The notes under the pieces are model-generated. The model was given only the letters and a program-made list of their open reading frames with translations, was not told the DNA's origin and made no database searches. A DNA stretch of 50,753 bases. It comes from a virus. Where the stretch lies: positions 1-50,753 of the IMG/VR virus record IMGVR_UViG_3300049491_000401; one strand, written 5' to 3'. The position numbers and the translations under genes are program-made. Below are positions 5,932-50,753 of this stretch, in pieces; position 1 is the first letter of the stretch; each line of letters begins with the position of its first letter.

Positions 5932-6069
5932 CTACTTGGCACCCTCCCGGCGCTGGCGGGCGCGCTTGAACATGGGGCGGGTGAAGAACCCGAGGATGAG
6001 AAATCCGGCCATTCCCGCCGATCCGCCTAGAACGACGGCCGCGAAGATTTTGAGATAGTAAGCCGTCAT
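5932..6069 (-). CDS. Small single-pass membrane protein
   Basis: 45 residues starting [13 protein letters not shown]. One long hydrophobic segment (LKIFAAVVLGGSAGMAGFLILGFF, about residues 6-29) is followed by a strongly basic tail (FKRARQRREGAK). The ATG overlaps the pentapeptide gene stop by 4 bases, so the two are coupled. It resembles the many single-TM early phage proteins; function unknown. Confidence 0.6.
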   Translation of the reverse strand: MTAYYLKIFAAVVLGGSAGMAGFLILGFFTRPMFKRARQRREGAK

Positions 6070-6659
6070 GACGCGGCCTCGGCTTTGATGGCTTTGTCTG
6101 GCTGCGGCTGCTCTTCCAGCCAATCGATAGCCCGTAGGTACATTGCCGCCAGAGGCCGGGAGCCGCTCGCGGACGCATTTGTCCGGTAGTGAGCGCGCGC
6201 CTCCTCGATCGTAAACCATCGGCACCCGGCCGCGATTTTCCAGAGGTCACCTTGCCAAACAGCGACGGGTCGATACCCGCGCTCGTCACCGACCGGCAAA
6301 CAAATGATGCCGGTGGCGCGCCAGAGGCTGGCACCGTGGAGGCTGGCACCGTCGAGGCTGGCACCGACGAGGCTGGCACCGACGAGGCTGGCACCGACGA
6401 GGCTGGCACCGACGAGGCTGGCACCGTCTAGGCTGGCACCGTCGAGGCTGGCACCGTCGAGGCGGGCACGGCCGAGGCGGGCACGGTCGAGGCTGGCACC
6501 GTGGAGGCGGGCACCGTCGAGGCGGGCACCGTCGAGGCGGGCACCGTCGAGGCGGGCACCGTCGAGGCGGGCACGGTCCGGATCAAGATAATCTGTCATG
6601 CCGCGATCAATCCAAGCCGCATGGCGTTTCAGGATTTCATAGAGTTCTGTTTTTGTCAT
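6066..6659 (-). CDS. Pentapeptide-repeat protein
   Basis: 197 residues from ATG 6659, with GAGG upstream. After a helical N-terminus ([18 protein letters not shown]), residues about 28-112 are 17 consecutive pentapeptides of the form A[RS]L[DVH]G, which fold as a right-handed quadrilateral beta-helix. The C-terminal part ([31 protein letters not shown]) is a separate domain also seen with phage pentapeptide proteins. Some pentapeptide proteins mimic DNA and bind gyrase, but others do not, so the target is open. It is the first gene after the early-left promoter and therefore expressed early. Confidence 0.87.
6324..6578. repeat. 17 tandem 15-bp repeats
   Basis: Seventeen head-to-tail 15-bp units close to GAGGCTGGCACCGTC encode the pentapeptides. 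Sub-blocks are identical (four successive units ending GAC, four ending GTC), a sign of recent duplication. The array can change length in whole codons, adding or removing one coil of the beta-helix at a time. Confidence 0.95.
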
Positions 6660-6729
6660 TTTTGCTTCCCTCACTCGGCTGGATCGATGACCGCTCGGCA
6701 TCCGCGGCCTCTCGTGAACCAGTCCAAAC

Positions 6730-6822: not shown

Positions 6823-6838
6823 AACGAGGATGCGTCAA
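6810..6838 (-). promoter_or_regulatory. Early-left sigma70 promoter (PL)
   Basis: On the minus strand a -35 TTGACG (6838-6833) and a -10 TATTGT (6815-6810) are separated by exactly 17 bases. Transcription would start near 6803 and read the pentapeptide gene and the whole leftward operon. The -10 box is overlapped by an inverted CGTAA/TTACG site. Confidence 0.72.
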
Positions 6839-6913
6839 CAACAATGTGCGGAAAAGTTACGCGATTTGTCAACGGCTGTGGATAAAGAGGACCGGATCGA
6901 CCTAGGCAATCAC

Positions 6914-7183
6914 CTAGGAATTAACGATAGGCGGTGCTGGTGATGGTCTGGGATTTGATGGCAATATCAGATCATTGGGTGTAATTTTGAGTATCGCGCA
7001 AATGCGAAGAAGCATCTCAAAGTTCGGCTCAACTTCGCCTCGCTCGTACCGCCTGTACCGAGCGCCCTCTATGCCTAAAAGTTGCGCGAGGTCTTCTCCT
7101 GAGGCATAGCCAGCGTCGGAGCGGGCCTCAGCAAGACGCCTCCCAAATTCACGCTTTATTCTGTCGTGTCGCGAAACCGCCAT
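6914..7183 (-). CDS. XRE-family repressor (CI-like)
   Basis: 89 residues. A full Cro/CI helix-turn-helix spans about residues 12-72 (FGRRLAEARSDAG, then LAQLLGIEGARYRRYERG, then LRICAILKITPNDLI). There is no LexA/CI-type cleavage domain, so release by RecA-stimulated self-cleavage is not expected. It is read leftward, back to back with a similar protein at 7282, and probably keeps the two early promoters off in the lysogen. Its stop codon lies inside one of two CCTAGG hexamers (6901-6906, 6913-6918). Confidence 0.82.
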   Translation of the reverse strand: MAVSRHDRIKREFGRRLAEARSDAGYASGEDLAQLLGIEGARYRRYERGEVEPNFEMLLRICAILKITPNDLILPSNPRPSPAPPIVNS

Positions 7184-7216
7184 GCGCCTTCATACATCGG
7201 GCGAAACTAATCCACA

Positions 7217-7222
7217 CGTAAC
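7217..7222. promoter_or_regulatory. Operator half-site between the divergent regulators
   Basis: CGTAAC, the same motif as in the other presumed operators, sits 35 bases upstream of the minus-strand repressor start, where it could control the repressor's own weak promoter. Confidence 0.35.
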
Positions 7223-7245
7223 AGTGTAGCTATACGAGTTTGCCC

Positions 7246-7273
7246 TTGACTAGAACAGAAAGTTACGTAACAA
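7246..7273 (+). promoter_or_regulatory. Early-right promoter (PR) with operator palindrome
   Basis: TTGACT (7246-7251) is followed after 16 bases by TAACAA (7268-7273). The -10 region contains a perfect 10-bp palindrome GTTACGTAAC (7262-7271), which fits repressor binding. Transcription would begin near 7280, almost at the ATG of the downstream regulator, so the message may be nearly leaderless. Confidence 0.5.
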
Positions 7274-7281
7274 ATGGTTGC

Positions 7282-7563
7282 ATGATGAGCAGCAAGACCA
7301 TTACGGCTCGTGTAAACCGGATCTTCTCGGCTCGGCTCCGGGAGAAGCGGAAGATGTGCGGCTACAAATCCGCGGAATCATTTGCAACGGCCGTCGGAAT
7401 GAAACCTCATACGTATCGGCGCTATGAGCGCGGCACAGCGCAGCCCAGCCTCGTAGTTCTCGCGCGCATCTGCATGGAATTGGACGTAACGCCAAACGAC
7501 ATTTTGCCTGAGCCGAAGACAGTTTGGCACGAGGACGGATCACCCGTTCTTGCCGCCGCCTAG
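7282..7563 (+). CDS. XRE-family regulator (Cro-like)
   Basis: 93 residues from ATG 7282; a TTG at 7240 would start inside the promoter and is rejected. The helix-turn-helix (FSARLREKRKMCGYKSAESFATAVGMKPHTYRRYERG) and the tail LARICMELDVTPNDILP match the divergent repressor position for position, so the two are paralogues. Reading away from the repressor and first in the rightward early operon, it has the position of Cro. Confidence 0.8.
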   Translation: MMSSKTITARVNRIFSARLREKRKMCGYKSAESFATAVGMKPHTYRRYERGTAQPSLVVLARICMELDVTPNDILPEPKTVWHEDGSPVLAAA

Positions 7564-14313: not shown

Positions 14314-14793
14314 ATGATCTGGTATGCCCTCCAAGTTCGCGGTTCTCAGGAATTGGCGATCGCCAACGATCTTCGCGCCGAAGGGCATACGGTGTTCGTT
14401 CCGGTCGAGCGCATCATTCGTGCCGCCCGGAACGCCAAGGGCAAGCTCACGGAGCGCGAAACGATCAAGCCGCTGGTGACGTCCTATGTTTTCTGCGATG
14501 CGCCCTACGTGGCTCACAAGCACGTCTACGGGCCTGTCACGTTCGGGTCTCAGGCCTACGGCATCCCGGACGCAGCAATGACCCCACTCAAGGCCCTCAA
14601 TGGCCGGGATCGGCGAGAAGGCCAACAAGTCGCTGTCTTCACGATTGGCCAGGTGGTCAAGCTCACCGGCGGCTCGTTCGAAGGAAAATCCGTCACCATC
14701 ACCAAGCGCGTCAACGGTAAGGTTGTGGTGCTCATGGACATCATCGGCGGGCCAAGGCGCGTTGTCCTCACTCAAGACCAGATCGCGGCTTGA
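14314..14793 (+). CDS. NusG/RfaH-like transcription elongation factor
   Basis: 159 residues. The N-terminal NGN-like domain starts MIWYALQVRGSQELAIANDLRAEGHTVFVPVER and continues LVTSYVFCDAP; the C-terminal KOW motif is GQVVKLTGGSFEGKSVTITKR (about residues 110-130). NusG paralogues bind the RNA polymerase clamp and increase processivity or recruit ribosomes. It lies just before the long late region, so a dedicated antiterminator for late transcription is a sound inference, functionally like lambda Q. Confidence 0.85.
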   Translation: MIWYALQVRGSQELAIANDLRAEGHTVFVPVERIIRAARNAKGKLTERETIKPLVTSYVFCDAPYVAHKHVYGPVTFGSQAYGIPDAAMTPLKALNGRDRREGQQVAVFTIGQVVKLTGGSFEGKSVTITKRVNGKVVVLMDIIGGPRRVVLTQDQIAA

Positions 14794-46897: not shown

Positions 46898-47054
46898 GCC
46901 GTCCAAGATCTGCAAACCGTGGAAGCAGATCAATATCCGAACTGCTGACAAACTGACACCCGAAACCGCCGGGGAGATCGAGCAGAACAACGTCGGTAGA
47001 GAGGCATTTGGCTGCCCCTACGAGCCACCGCTCAAGCGCGTGGCGGGGAAGTAG
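46773..47054 (+). CDS. Probable o-spanin lipoprotein (Rz1-like), overlapping the i-spanin
   Basis: 93 residues starting inside the previous gene in another frame. A basic n-region and LNAGSILALLSSGC give a lipoprotein signal with Cys33. The mature part has ICKPWKQINI and FGCPYEPP, features I associate with Rz1-like proteins of alphaproteobacterial phages. The true start may be slightly different because the n-region is unusually long. Confidence 0.68.
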   Translation: MQWRRSRSGRKRRSTRLKLLNAGSILALLSSGCAVDTAQTVEPSKICKPWKQINIRTADKLTPETAGEIEQNNVGREAFGCPYEPPLKRVAGK

Positions 47055-47147
47055 CGTCTCCGGATGGAATCGAACCACCGACTTCCTGTAGTGATCGGAC
47101 CGAAATCCGATCACGCCAGGACCTCTAACCAGCTGAGGTACGGAGAC
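47055..47147 (-). tRNA. tRNA-like gene with long hairpin instead of an anticodon loop
   Basis: Read on the minus strand this is a tRNA body: 7-bp acceptor GTCTCCG/CGGAGAC, T8 and A9, D-arm CCTC-AGCTGGTTA-GAGG with the conserved A14 and GG, and T-arm GGTGG-TTCGATT-CCATC. Where a 17-nt anticodon arm should be there is a CCTG/CAGG base stem carrying a further 10-bp stem (GTGATCGGAT/GTCCGATCAC) closed by a TTCG tetraloop. No ordinary 7-nt anticodon loop is present, and CCA is not encoded. It lies 48 bases after the last gene of the minus operon. It may be a tRNA derivative with a non-decoding function, or an intron-bearing or decayed tRNA. Confidence 0.7.
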
Positions 47148-49224: not shown

Positions 49225-50055
49225 TTATTTTCTCCGTTTGCGCCCATCAGCCGGTTTCAGATCGTAGCGTTTGCATATTTTTGCCACCTGCCTGTCGGAC
49301 AGATCAATTTTCCGCGCGATGTCTACCACTGATAGCCCCTGCTGCACGAACGGGGAGATTTGCTCTCGGCGCCGTTCCGGTGTCCAAATATCCGAATGCG
49401 CGACAATGCCGCGTCGCCTGATTACGCGCGACACCAGTGCGCGTGATACGCCCAGTTCCTCCGCCACAAGCGAGGGAGTCATGCCGGTTGCCAGTGCGGC
49501 TGCAATAGCATCCTGGTTCAGACTGCCGGACACCTGCGACCGCCCCTTGTTAGCCTGCCCCCATGTCCACTGTTGACGGCGGAACAGCCGAGCGATTGTT
49601 GATTGATGGACGCCGATCAATGTTGCCGCCTGCGCCATTGTAGATCCGCGCCTATGTTCGGCTATAATTATTGCGACCACGCGCACGTCTAAACCAAGAT
49701 CGCGACGAGGAGAGGGGAGGCTGTAGCTCGCTCTGTGCCGCGCTACAGTGCTCGGATATCTGACCCCGATTGCCTCCGCGATCTCTCGATCTGACCGCCC
49801 CTCATGCGTCAGTTTCGCAATAATACTTCGTTTTTCGGCCGATAGCCGCACGTCGTGGCGGGCACCTTTGACGCCAACAATGTCGTGACGAATTCGCATC
49901 ATCACCACTATATCCTCGGACACGCCCAACTCGTCCGCTATTTGACGACCAGGCATTCCTGCGGCAACGCACTCGCGCACAAACTCAACCCGAGCGACTG
50001 CGTCGAGATTAGGCCATAACGATCGTACGGCCTCCATCTCTGGATGGTCATCCAC
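49225..50055 (-). CDS. Protein with five tandem helix-turn-helix units
   Basis: 276 residues from GTG 50055, with AGAGAGGA upstream. Five HTH units of the Hin/Tc1 kind follow each other at about 24-58, 75-110, 124-160, 181-214 and 228-264; the turn cores are MPGRQIADELGVSEDIV, RSDREIAEAIGVRYPST, STMAQAATLIGVHQST, MTPSLVAEELGVSRALV and LSVVDIARKIDLSDRQV. No catalytic domain is left over. It could bind a long or repeated DNA site. It lies between the divergent control region of the serine recombinase and the minus operon, so a recombination accessory or architectural role is one idea. Confidence 0.75.
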   Translation of the reverse strand: MDDHPEMEAVRSLWPNLDAVARVEFVRECVAAGMPGRQIADELGVSEDIVVMMRIRHDIVGVKGARHDVRLSAEKRSIIAKLTHEGRSDREIAEAIGVRYPSTVARHRASYSLPSPRRDLGLDVRVVAIIIAEHRRGSTMAQAATLIGVHQSTIARLFRRQQWTWGQANKGRSQVSGSLNQDAIAAALATGMTPSLVAEELGVSRALVSRVIRRRGIVAHSDIWTPERRREQISPFVQQGLSVVDIARKIDLSDRQVAKICKRYDLKPADGRKRRK

Positions 50056-50453: not shown

Positions 50454-50753
50454 ATGCGGAAACCCAAGAAGTTGCCTCCGGAACACCCATATCCGACACA
50501 TCAGATAGGCTACGCGAGGGTGAGCACGACAGAACAAGATTTGCGAATGCAGATCGACGCGCTCCATAAAGTCGGTATCGAAGACAAGGATATCTACACC
50601 GACAAGAAGAGCGGCAGGAACAGGAAGCGACCGGGGCTCGAAGCCGCTCTCGAAGCGTGTCGGCCCGGCGACACTCTGACGGTCTGGAAGTTCGATCGAT
50701 TGAGCCGGAACGCGCTCGACATGATCACCATGCTGGAGGAGTGCAAAGTGCGT
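50454..50753 (+). CDS. Serine recombinase (resolvase/invertase type), 5' part
   Basis: The gene starts at ATG 50454 and runs off the window into base 1. The N-terminus reads GYARVSTTEQDL at residues 19-30, the classical catalytic block with the nucleophile at Ser24. Arg22 and the later DRLSR complete the active-site signature. The ribosome binding site is poor, with only a GAG about 10 bases upstream. The start is divergent from the minus-strand gene beginning at 50319, and the spacer holds promoter-like TTGAC elements in both directions. The recombinase therefore shares a control region with that gene and the five-HTH gene behind it, which could be partners in its regulation. Confidence 0.92.
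   Translation, partial: MRKPKKLPPEHPYPTHQIGYARVSTTEQDLRMQIDALHKVGIEDKDIYTDKKSGRNRKRPGLEAALEACRPGDTLTVWKFDRLSRNALDMITMLEECKVR
50627..50753. repeat. Terminal direct repeat, right copy
   Basis: Exact copy of bases 1-127. It carries the middle of the serine recombinase gene, from shortly before the DRLSR motif to just after it. Annotators should delete one copy and join the ends. Confidence 0.93.

Follow-up and report, generated by a model that had tools for sequence, protein, structure and literature searches.

Why would a phage carry a gene for a transfer RNA that has exchanged its anticodon loop for a long hairpin? The question arises from a tRNA-like gene close to one end of an IMG/VR virus record, the 50,753 nucleotides of which are here called the window. 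A direct terminal repeat of 127 nt is located at the window ends, and therefore the genome is probably complete, circularly assembled and ∼50.6 kb in length. Among its structural proteins, one shows a distant relationship to counterparts in temperate podoviruses, such as phiV10 and SPN1S. The tRNA-like gene is located downstream of a run of small genes on the minus strand and abuts the stop codon of a convergent plus-strand lysis ORF that ends at 47054. A consensus scan detected no promoter-like site directly upstream of the gene, no terminator-like site was found near it on the minus strand, and there is no second copy of its hairpin sequence within the window.

Several other features of the window were noted. 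A small serine recombinase of the resolvase/invertase type (∼210 aa) is encoded across the record ends, at 50505-50753 joined to 1-470, and there is no match to the tyrosine integrase family PF00589. The start of a 159-aa protein encoded at 14314-14793 resembles, by eye only, a NusG-type N-terminal domain, making this protein a possible phage antitermination factor, and a similar ORF is found in contig G034, a relative described below. Tandem repeats of 15 nt in 17 registers occupy 6264-6623 and overlap a minus-strand ORF (6066-6701). In addition, a 276-aa protein encoded at 49225-50055 has more than one helix-turn-helix motif; among them is a match to GcrA, below threshold, that hints at an alphaproteobacterial host.

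A tRNA body with a hairpin in place of the anticodon loop

An earlier note on this DNA described the element as a tRNA in which a 10-bp hairpin with a UUCG loop takes the place of the anticodon loop, and the sequence, ARAGORN, Rfam and the predicted fold all confirm that description. Read on the minus strand from 47147 to 47054, the 5' half is GTCTCCG-TA-CCTC-AGCTGGTTA-GAGG-T-CCTG-GC-GTGATCGGAT-TTCG and the 3' half is GTCCGATCAC-TA-CAGG-AAGTC-GGTGG-TTCGATT-CCATC-CGGAGAC-G (Table 1). The acceptor, D and T arms are complete and retain the conserved loop bases, as the note had also stated and as is evident from the sequence, the fold and the Rfam match. The anticodon arm consists of a 5-bp lower stem, with U26-A44 extending CCTG/CAGG by one pair, followed by a 2x2 internal loop (GC/UA) and the 10-bp hairpin closed by UUCG. 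This loop is itself closed by a U.G pair and not by the extra-stable C-G. A stretch of 42 nt separates the D and T arms, compared with 23 nt in a normal tRNA, which agrees with the earlier estimate of about 19 extra bases. The gene extends to G73, and CCA is not encoded.

Table 1. Coordinates of the tRNA-like gene and its parts in the window
Feature	Positions	Strand	Basis or remark
Non-decoding tRNA-like RNA gene, 94 nt including G73	47054..47147	-	ARAGORN, Rfam RF00005, R1 model, fold
Acceptor stem 5' strand, GTCTCCG	47141..47147	-	Pairs 7/7 with 47055-47061
D arm, CCTC-AGCTGGTTA-GAGG, with the family's C10-G25 pair	47122..47138	-	
Lower anticodon stem 5' strand, U26-CCUG	47117..47121	-	Identical in G034
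10-bp hairpin, GTGATCGGAT-TTCG-GTCCGATCAC, replacing the anticodon loop	47091..47114	-	Fold, arm z
Lower anticodon stem 3' strand, CAGG-A44	47084..47088	-	
Remaining variable loop, AGTC (A45 G46 U47 C48)	47080..47083	-	
T arm, GGTGG-TTCGATT-CCATC (49-65)	47063..47079	-	Ends approximate to one base
Acceptor stem 3' strand, CGGAGAC	47055..47061	-	

ARAGORN calls the element as tRNA-??? with no isotype. The Rfam tRNA model (RF00005) matches 47055-47147 end to end at 45.8 bits, with a 28-nt insert at the anticodon. With Rfam run at the gathering threshold and default fast filters the element is missed, as the filters drop a match that E-value mode recovers, and no curated RNA family other than tRNA exceeds its gathering score in this region. 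The predicted fold is the described cloverleaf, at -45 kcal/mol (z -3.4), and none of 200 shuffles folds as well. Taken alone, the central arm has a z of about -6 against dinucleotide shuffles. The covariance model R1 scores the window element at 82 bits, the window being one of the 14 sequences from which R1 was built.

A 5-bp anticodon stem with a 7-nt loop, U33 and a purine at position 37 are absent from the element, which has a 24-nt hairpin there. Position 33 is a G in the window and a U in only 4 of the 24 members of the family described below, whereas all 55 ordinary tRNAs of the same contigs, parsed identically, have U33. In the window the stem ends in G31 x A39, C32 and U38 lie on either side of the hairpin, and without the hairpin there is still no U33. 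There is consequently no readable anticodon, nor is one restored by taking the hairpin out, and both a decoding and an intron reading fail. The suggestion that this could be a tRNA with a removable insert has to be given up for the same reasons. Being tRNA-shaped and, judged from its sequence, unable to decode, the element would count as a pseudo-tRNA in the broad sense.

A family with a C10-G25 D stem in scattered phages

A first pattern scan of IMG/VR, in which the length from D to T arm was left free, matched 79 contig stretches. Sorted by structure, many of these are tRNA-like genes with extended anticodon arms, and several share with the window its uncommon D stem, CCTC/GAGG (C10-G25). 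Ile(TAT) tRNAs with long variable arms, tandem tRNAs and tRNAs in arrays were set aside. A second scan, built on the C10-G25 D stem and permitting normal length, returned 27 loci: 8 are Ile, Met or Thr tRNAs of ordinary length, mostly within tRNA arrays, and the other 19 carry hairpins where the anticodon arm would be. A further, looser scan added members, and 24 distinct sequences were kept, including those of the window and G034 (an over-specific tRNA pattern gave no matches; looser patterns succeeded). Common to the family is a core made up of the C10-G25 D stem and A45-G46-N47-C48, with G46 and C48 in every member and A45 in 22. The window has all the defining features, namely C10-G25, G46, C48, A45, a paired acceptor and an extended anticodon arm. 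Several members share a three-part build of lower stem, internal loop and distal hairpin, and the hairpins are unrelated between members in sequence, length and loop (UUCG, UCCG, GCAA, CACA or 7 nt). CCA is encoded in 5 of the 24, and G3-U70 is present in 2.

These elements form a small and apparently undescribed family in scattered uncultivated phages. In the open-access texts consulted, we found no phage tRNA mimics whose anticodon arm is extended, although unanticipated wording would escape such a search. In phage records, blast with the window locus returned generic T arms only, short N-padded D-arm queries gave no matches at E-values that may exceed the limit, and no megablast-level relatives of L066, L048 or L090 were detected among 50,697 records. 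Genes of this kind are easily overlooked, as ARAGORN finds none, assigns no isotype, or assigns a doubtful one.

Other arrangements were observed beside the C10-G25 family. An ordinary G10-C25 D stem is combined with an extended anticodon arm at L012, L039, L036/L044/L055, L032/L045, L015, L059, L074, L079 and L081; a tyrosine integrase-sized ORF is located 1-3 kb upstream at L012, L036 and L055, with integrase matches in the L012 and L036 records, and the L012 and L039 hairpins differ by a compensatory pair change. At L014, L033, L042, L049, L050, L061, L062 and L063 the acceptor is TGACCCT or TGGCCCT and 48-50 nt without a clear single hairpin separate the D and T arms; these contigs carry tRNA arrays, and most also a tmRNA. 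Phage genes for tRNA-Ile(TAT) that combine an unusually long variable arm with a normal anticodon loop are found at L007, L016, L038, L043, L065 and L080. The L056 acceptor stem continues into its flanks as a shifted inverted repeat of ∼20 bp (GTTGCACCAGATGTACCTGCTC / GAGCAGGTACATCTGGTGCAAT). Finally, one phage has a tRNA-Met and a C10-G25 mimic (L155, 6423-6589) as well as a tyrosine integrase (G039, 6828-7313), probably close together; the L155 positions are locus coordinates and those of G039 record coordinates.

The D arm and T loop are largely fixed by the search patterns, and therefore their invariance is not evidence of selection. The acceptor stem, the lower anticodon stem, G46, C48 and A45 lie outside these patterns, so their conservation is not circular. 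Pairing holds in 97.3% of cells when 14 sequences are aligned. Changes on both sides occur in each of the seven acceptor pairs and in each of the five scored pairs of the lower anticodon stem (88.6% paired), and the T helix is 100% paired. The covariation score of this alignment is 0.81, compared with 0.19 after shuffling and no more than 0.18 with the partners slid. The arms of all 24 members fold better than the mean of their dinucleotide shuffles (Fisher combined p ∼2e-19), a result that is partly expected of any stem-loop. The conservation of G46, C48 and A45 would fit a tertiary core that has been kept. On this evidence the element is a virus-associated, non-decoding tRNA mimic whose shape is kept by selection, and the covariation supports the earlier claim that selection has maintained the tRNA body while decoding was lost. 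Compensatory change among relatives, which the note had named as a check, is found both in the covariation and in the re-paired stems of G034.

The latter contig was identified by a terminase scan and has a terminase 91% identical to that of the window. Its element is found by R1 at 59.8 bits, G034 not being in the R1 seed. The D stem, T arm and U26-CCUG/CAGG-A44 are those of the window, whereas the acceptor, CGCCCTG/CAGGGTG, is wholly different yet fully paired, and the distal hairpin, unlike that of the window, has 14 bp, five of them G-U, and a CACA loop, and is likewise fully paired. As G-U pairs preserve an RNA helix and not a DNA palindrome, selection appears to act on the RNA. The G034 copy is located at a site homologous to window position ∼14931, where the window has no insert, and the window copy is ∼32 kb from this site in window coordinates and on the opposite strand. 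In G034 the copy is a clean indel of ∼117 nt within otherwise alignable DNA, holds little besides the RNA itself and is flanked by a 7-bp repeat, CGCCAAA.

Seven further terminase relatives, several of them fragments, have no family element by R1; they are G035 (75% terminase identity), the fragment G036 (6 kb) and five with 41-44% identity, two of which are only ∼5 kb. The 19-bit R1 match in G035 is a tRNA 3' half beside an integrase: Lys-like (TTT) and with CCA, it lies at 567-658, near a tyrosine integrase at 1354-1851, and is likely attP, from which it follows that G035 is probably temperate. An endolysin scan returned one relative, without an element of the C10-G25 family, and a structural-protein scan for relatives returned none. 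With the element absent from relatives, or present elsewhere, both its presence and its position vary. No ordinary 17-nt anticodon arm, which the note had named as contrary to its reading, occupies the locus in any relative examined; these have either no element or the same architecture at another place.

The extended pattern was run twice against the genomes of 84,980 bacterial and archaeal species, using exact patterns and without a positive control there, and gave no match; at the level of these patterns the case for absence from cellular genomes is strong but not absolute. A shared-neighbour search found no gene common to all carriers, and no tyrosine integrase was found in most of them. 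Of 14 fetched records >19 kb, 11 have no second, ordinary tRNA. Ro60/TROVE (PF05731) is absent from 25 carrier or relative records, with a control genome positive and incomplete records counting as weaker evidence. A tblastn search with the window's minus-strand genes found no homologues in the relatives' records, one of which is a partial genome. The idea that the RNA works with the adjacent minus-strand genes is not borne out, given the different location in G034 and the lack of a recurrent neighbour across the family.

Candidate roles of the RNA

Of the possible roles, we tentatively prefer an accessory one, in which the RNA acts as a decoy or competitor towards host factors that bind tRNA, perhaps in counter-defence. 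Conservation of the elbow, core and pairing, together with freedom of the acceptor and hairpin sequence, fits factors that read the shape of a tRNA and not its identity. A decoy becomes the first choice given that variable presence and position are typical of accessory phage genes, and that tRNA-cutting defences are documented, together with phage tRNAs that answer them (PMC10264068, PMC11555353). The RNA would be read through from the minus-strand genes, as suggested by the lack of an upstream promoter-like site and by how little the G034 indel holds beyond the RNA, and its maturation would presumably follow the tRNA route, through host RNase P and 3' processing. It is then expected to adopt the L shape of a tRNA, in which the elbow and acceptor end are normal and a long rigid hairpin replaces the anticodon loop. 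Such an RNA would neither decode nor be open to anticodon-loop nucleases, and may occupy host proteins that read the tRNA elbow, core or acceptor end, for example tRNA-targeting defence enzymes or toxins, acting as an uncleavable or non-productive competitor. Decoy action requires high abundance or affinity relative to the very large host tRNA pool. Charging by a single synthetase is unlikely, as the acceptor is free even between close relatives and CCA and G3-U70 are so infrequent, and the free acceptor and the lack of CCA in most copies also make EF-Tu binding doubtful.

Two other functional accounts are each unlikely. The tRNA body may be a scaffold that protects and matures the RNA, with the hairpin as the working ligand for a phage or host protein in regulation, packaging or anti-defence. 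The long structured arms of all 24 members and the three-part build of several agree with this, and it would be a natural parallel of the engineered tRNA-scaffold method (PMC3753655, for example). However, hairpins that are unrelated even between the window and G034 would be odd for a specific ligand. Alternatively, the element could punctuate a transcript, its tRNA shape directing cleavage by RNase P and 3' nucleases that would release mRNA ends where the minus-strand operon faces the lysis genes. RNase P needs no anticodon arm, and both the location of the window copy, downstream of the minus-strand run and beside the convergent lysis ORF, and the lack of a terminator-like site there suit this account. 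The G034 copy, however, sits between genes elsewhere, and processing alone leaves the long paired arms and the C10-G25/A45 core unexplained.

The remaining explanations give the RNA less to do. It is improbable that a small mobile or passenger gene is moving between phages while giving its carriers little in return. The elements are indeed scattered over unrelated phages without a partner gene, and the G034 copy is a clean indel between CGCCAAA repeats. However, this repeat equally fits a deletion, the elements have no linked mobility enzyme, and the repeats that flank the 24 elements exceed shuffles by a small margin only (mean 4.96 versus 4.45; 2 of 300), an excess that could reflect base composition. 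The hairpin being unique in the window and the flanking repeats unconvincing, a DNA repeat or mobile palindrome was set aside. Still less probable is a role at the level of DNA, as a recombination or attachment site located by chance within a tRNA gene. Despite the palindromic hairpin, the tyrosine integrases near some G10-C25 elements and L155, and the serine recombinase across the window ends, the latter gene is ∼3.4 kb away, the five G-U pairs of the G034 arm break a DNA palindrome, and a tRNA attachment site was rejected on the lack of a tyrosine integrase in the window and in most carriers. That a small intron is spliced out of a tRNA here, or that the tRNA decodes with a long anticodon arm, is a yet fainter prospect. 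The extra bases do lie at the canonical intron position, and the loops of L048, L064, L086 and L092 are near 7 nt with a U33-like base, but the identity of position 33 across the family argues otherwise, as does the failure of hairpin removal to give a U33-anticodon-R37 loop or any consistent anticodon. Bacteria are not known to have small protein-spliced tRNA introns. Least probable of all is a decaying tRNA pseudogene with a chance palindrome; ARAGORN assigns no isotype, as might be expected of one, but the 7/7 acceptor is intact, the tertiary core is kept, family covariation is strong and the stems are fully re-paired in G034.

Place among known tRNA-like RNAs

The nearest known kinds are the pseudo-tRNAs, represented by tRNA-Other, the Y RNAs and engineered tRNA scaffolds. 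Like YrlA, a bacterial Y RNA with a tRNA-like domain that is encoded near Ro60, the mimic imitates a tRNA without decoding, and bacterial Y RNAs have been reported in phages too. Unlike YrlA, its ends form a standard acceptor stem, and a Y RNA of known type was rejected given the absence of Ro60/TROVE from the 25 records and of any non-tRNA family match. The tRNA-like domain of tmRNA also joins an acceptor and T arm to a helix in the place of the anticodon stem; in contrast, the mimic has a full D stem, C3-G70 in place of G3-U70, and no tag ORF or room for one, and ARAGORN reports no tmRNA in the window. Engineered scaffold RNAs likewise carry a foreign hairpin for an anticodon arm on a retained tRNA body, whereas the mimic is natural and has a conserved C10-G25/A45 core. 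tRNA-Other, the Bacillus cereus pseudo-tRNA, is tRNA-shaped with no role in translation, but it keeps a Trp anticodon and sits inside a longer regulatory RNA (PMC3399842). Ordinary phage tRNAs, which supply codons or stand in for tRNAs cut by defences (PMC10264068, PMC11555353), share the tRNA body, the phage location and the accessory presence; the mimic differs in having no 7-nt loop, U33 or anticodon, in a hairpin that varies in sequence and length, and in usually being the sole tRNA-like gene of its phage. The tRNAs of tRNA-dependent lysogeny and tRNA-fragment attP sites (PMC10865867) are phage tRNA genes with uses beyond codon supply, but require an integrase and a real isotype, or only a tRNA 3' half, and the mimic fits neither. 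It therefore belongs among the known non-translational tRNA-like RNAs, and is unusual in its apparent restriction to viruses.

A broader proposal, which we hold to be rather doubtful, is that a virus-specific class of mimics, spread across unrelated phages, disarms a host factor that reads tRNA shape, such as an immune nuclease or toxin. If true, this would be counter-defence by means of RNA, with a helix substituted for the vulnerable anticodon loop. The usual explanations of phage tRNAs are codon supply and the replacement of cut host tRNAs, and a tRNA-shaped family free of decoding falls outside both. Its existence suggests that phages use tRNA-like RNAs for a purpose other than translation, and the family offers a direct test of tRNA-shaped phage RNAs as decoys, ligands or processing devices.
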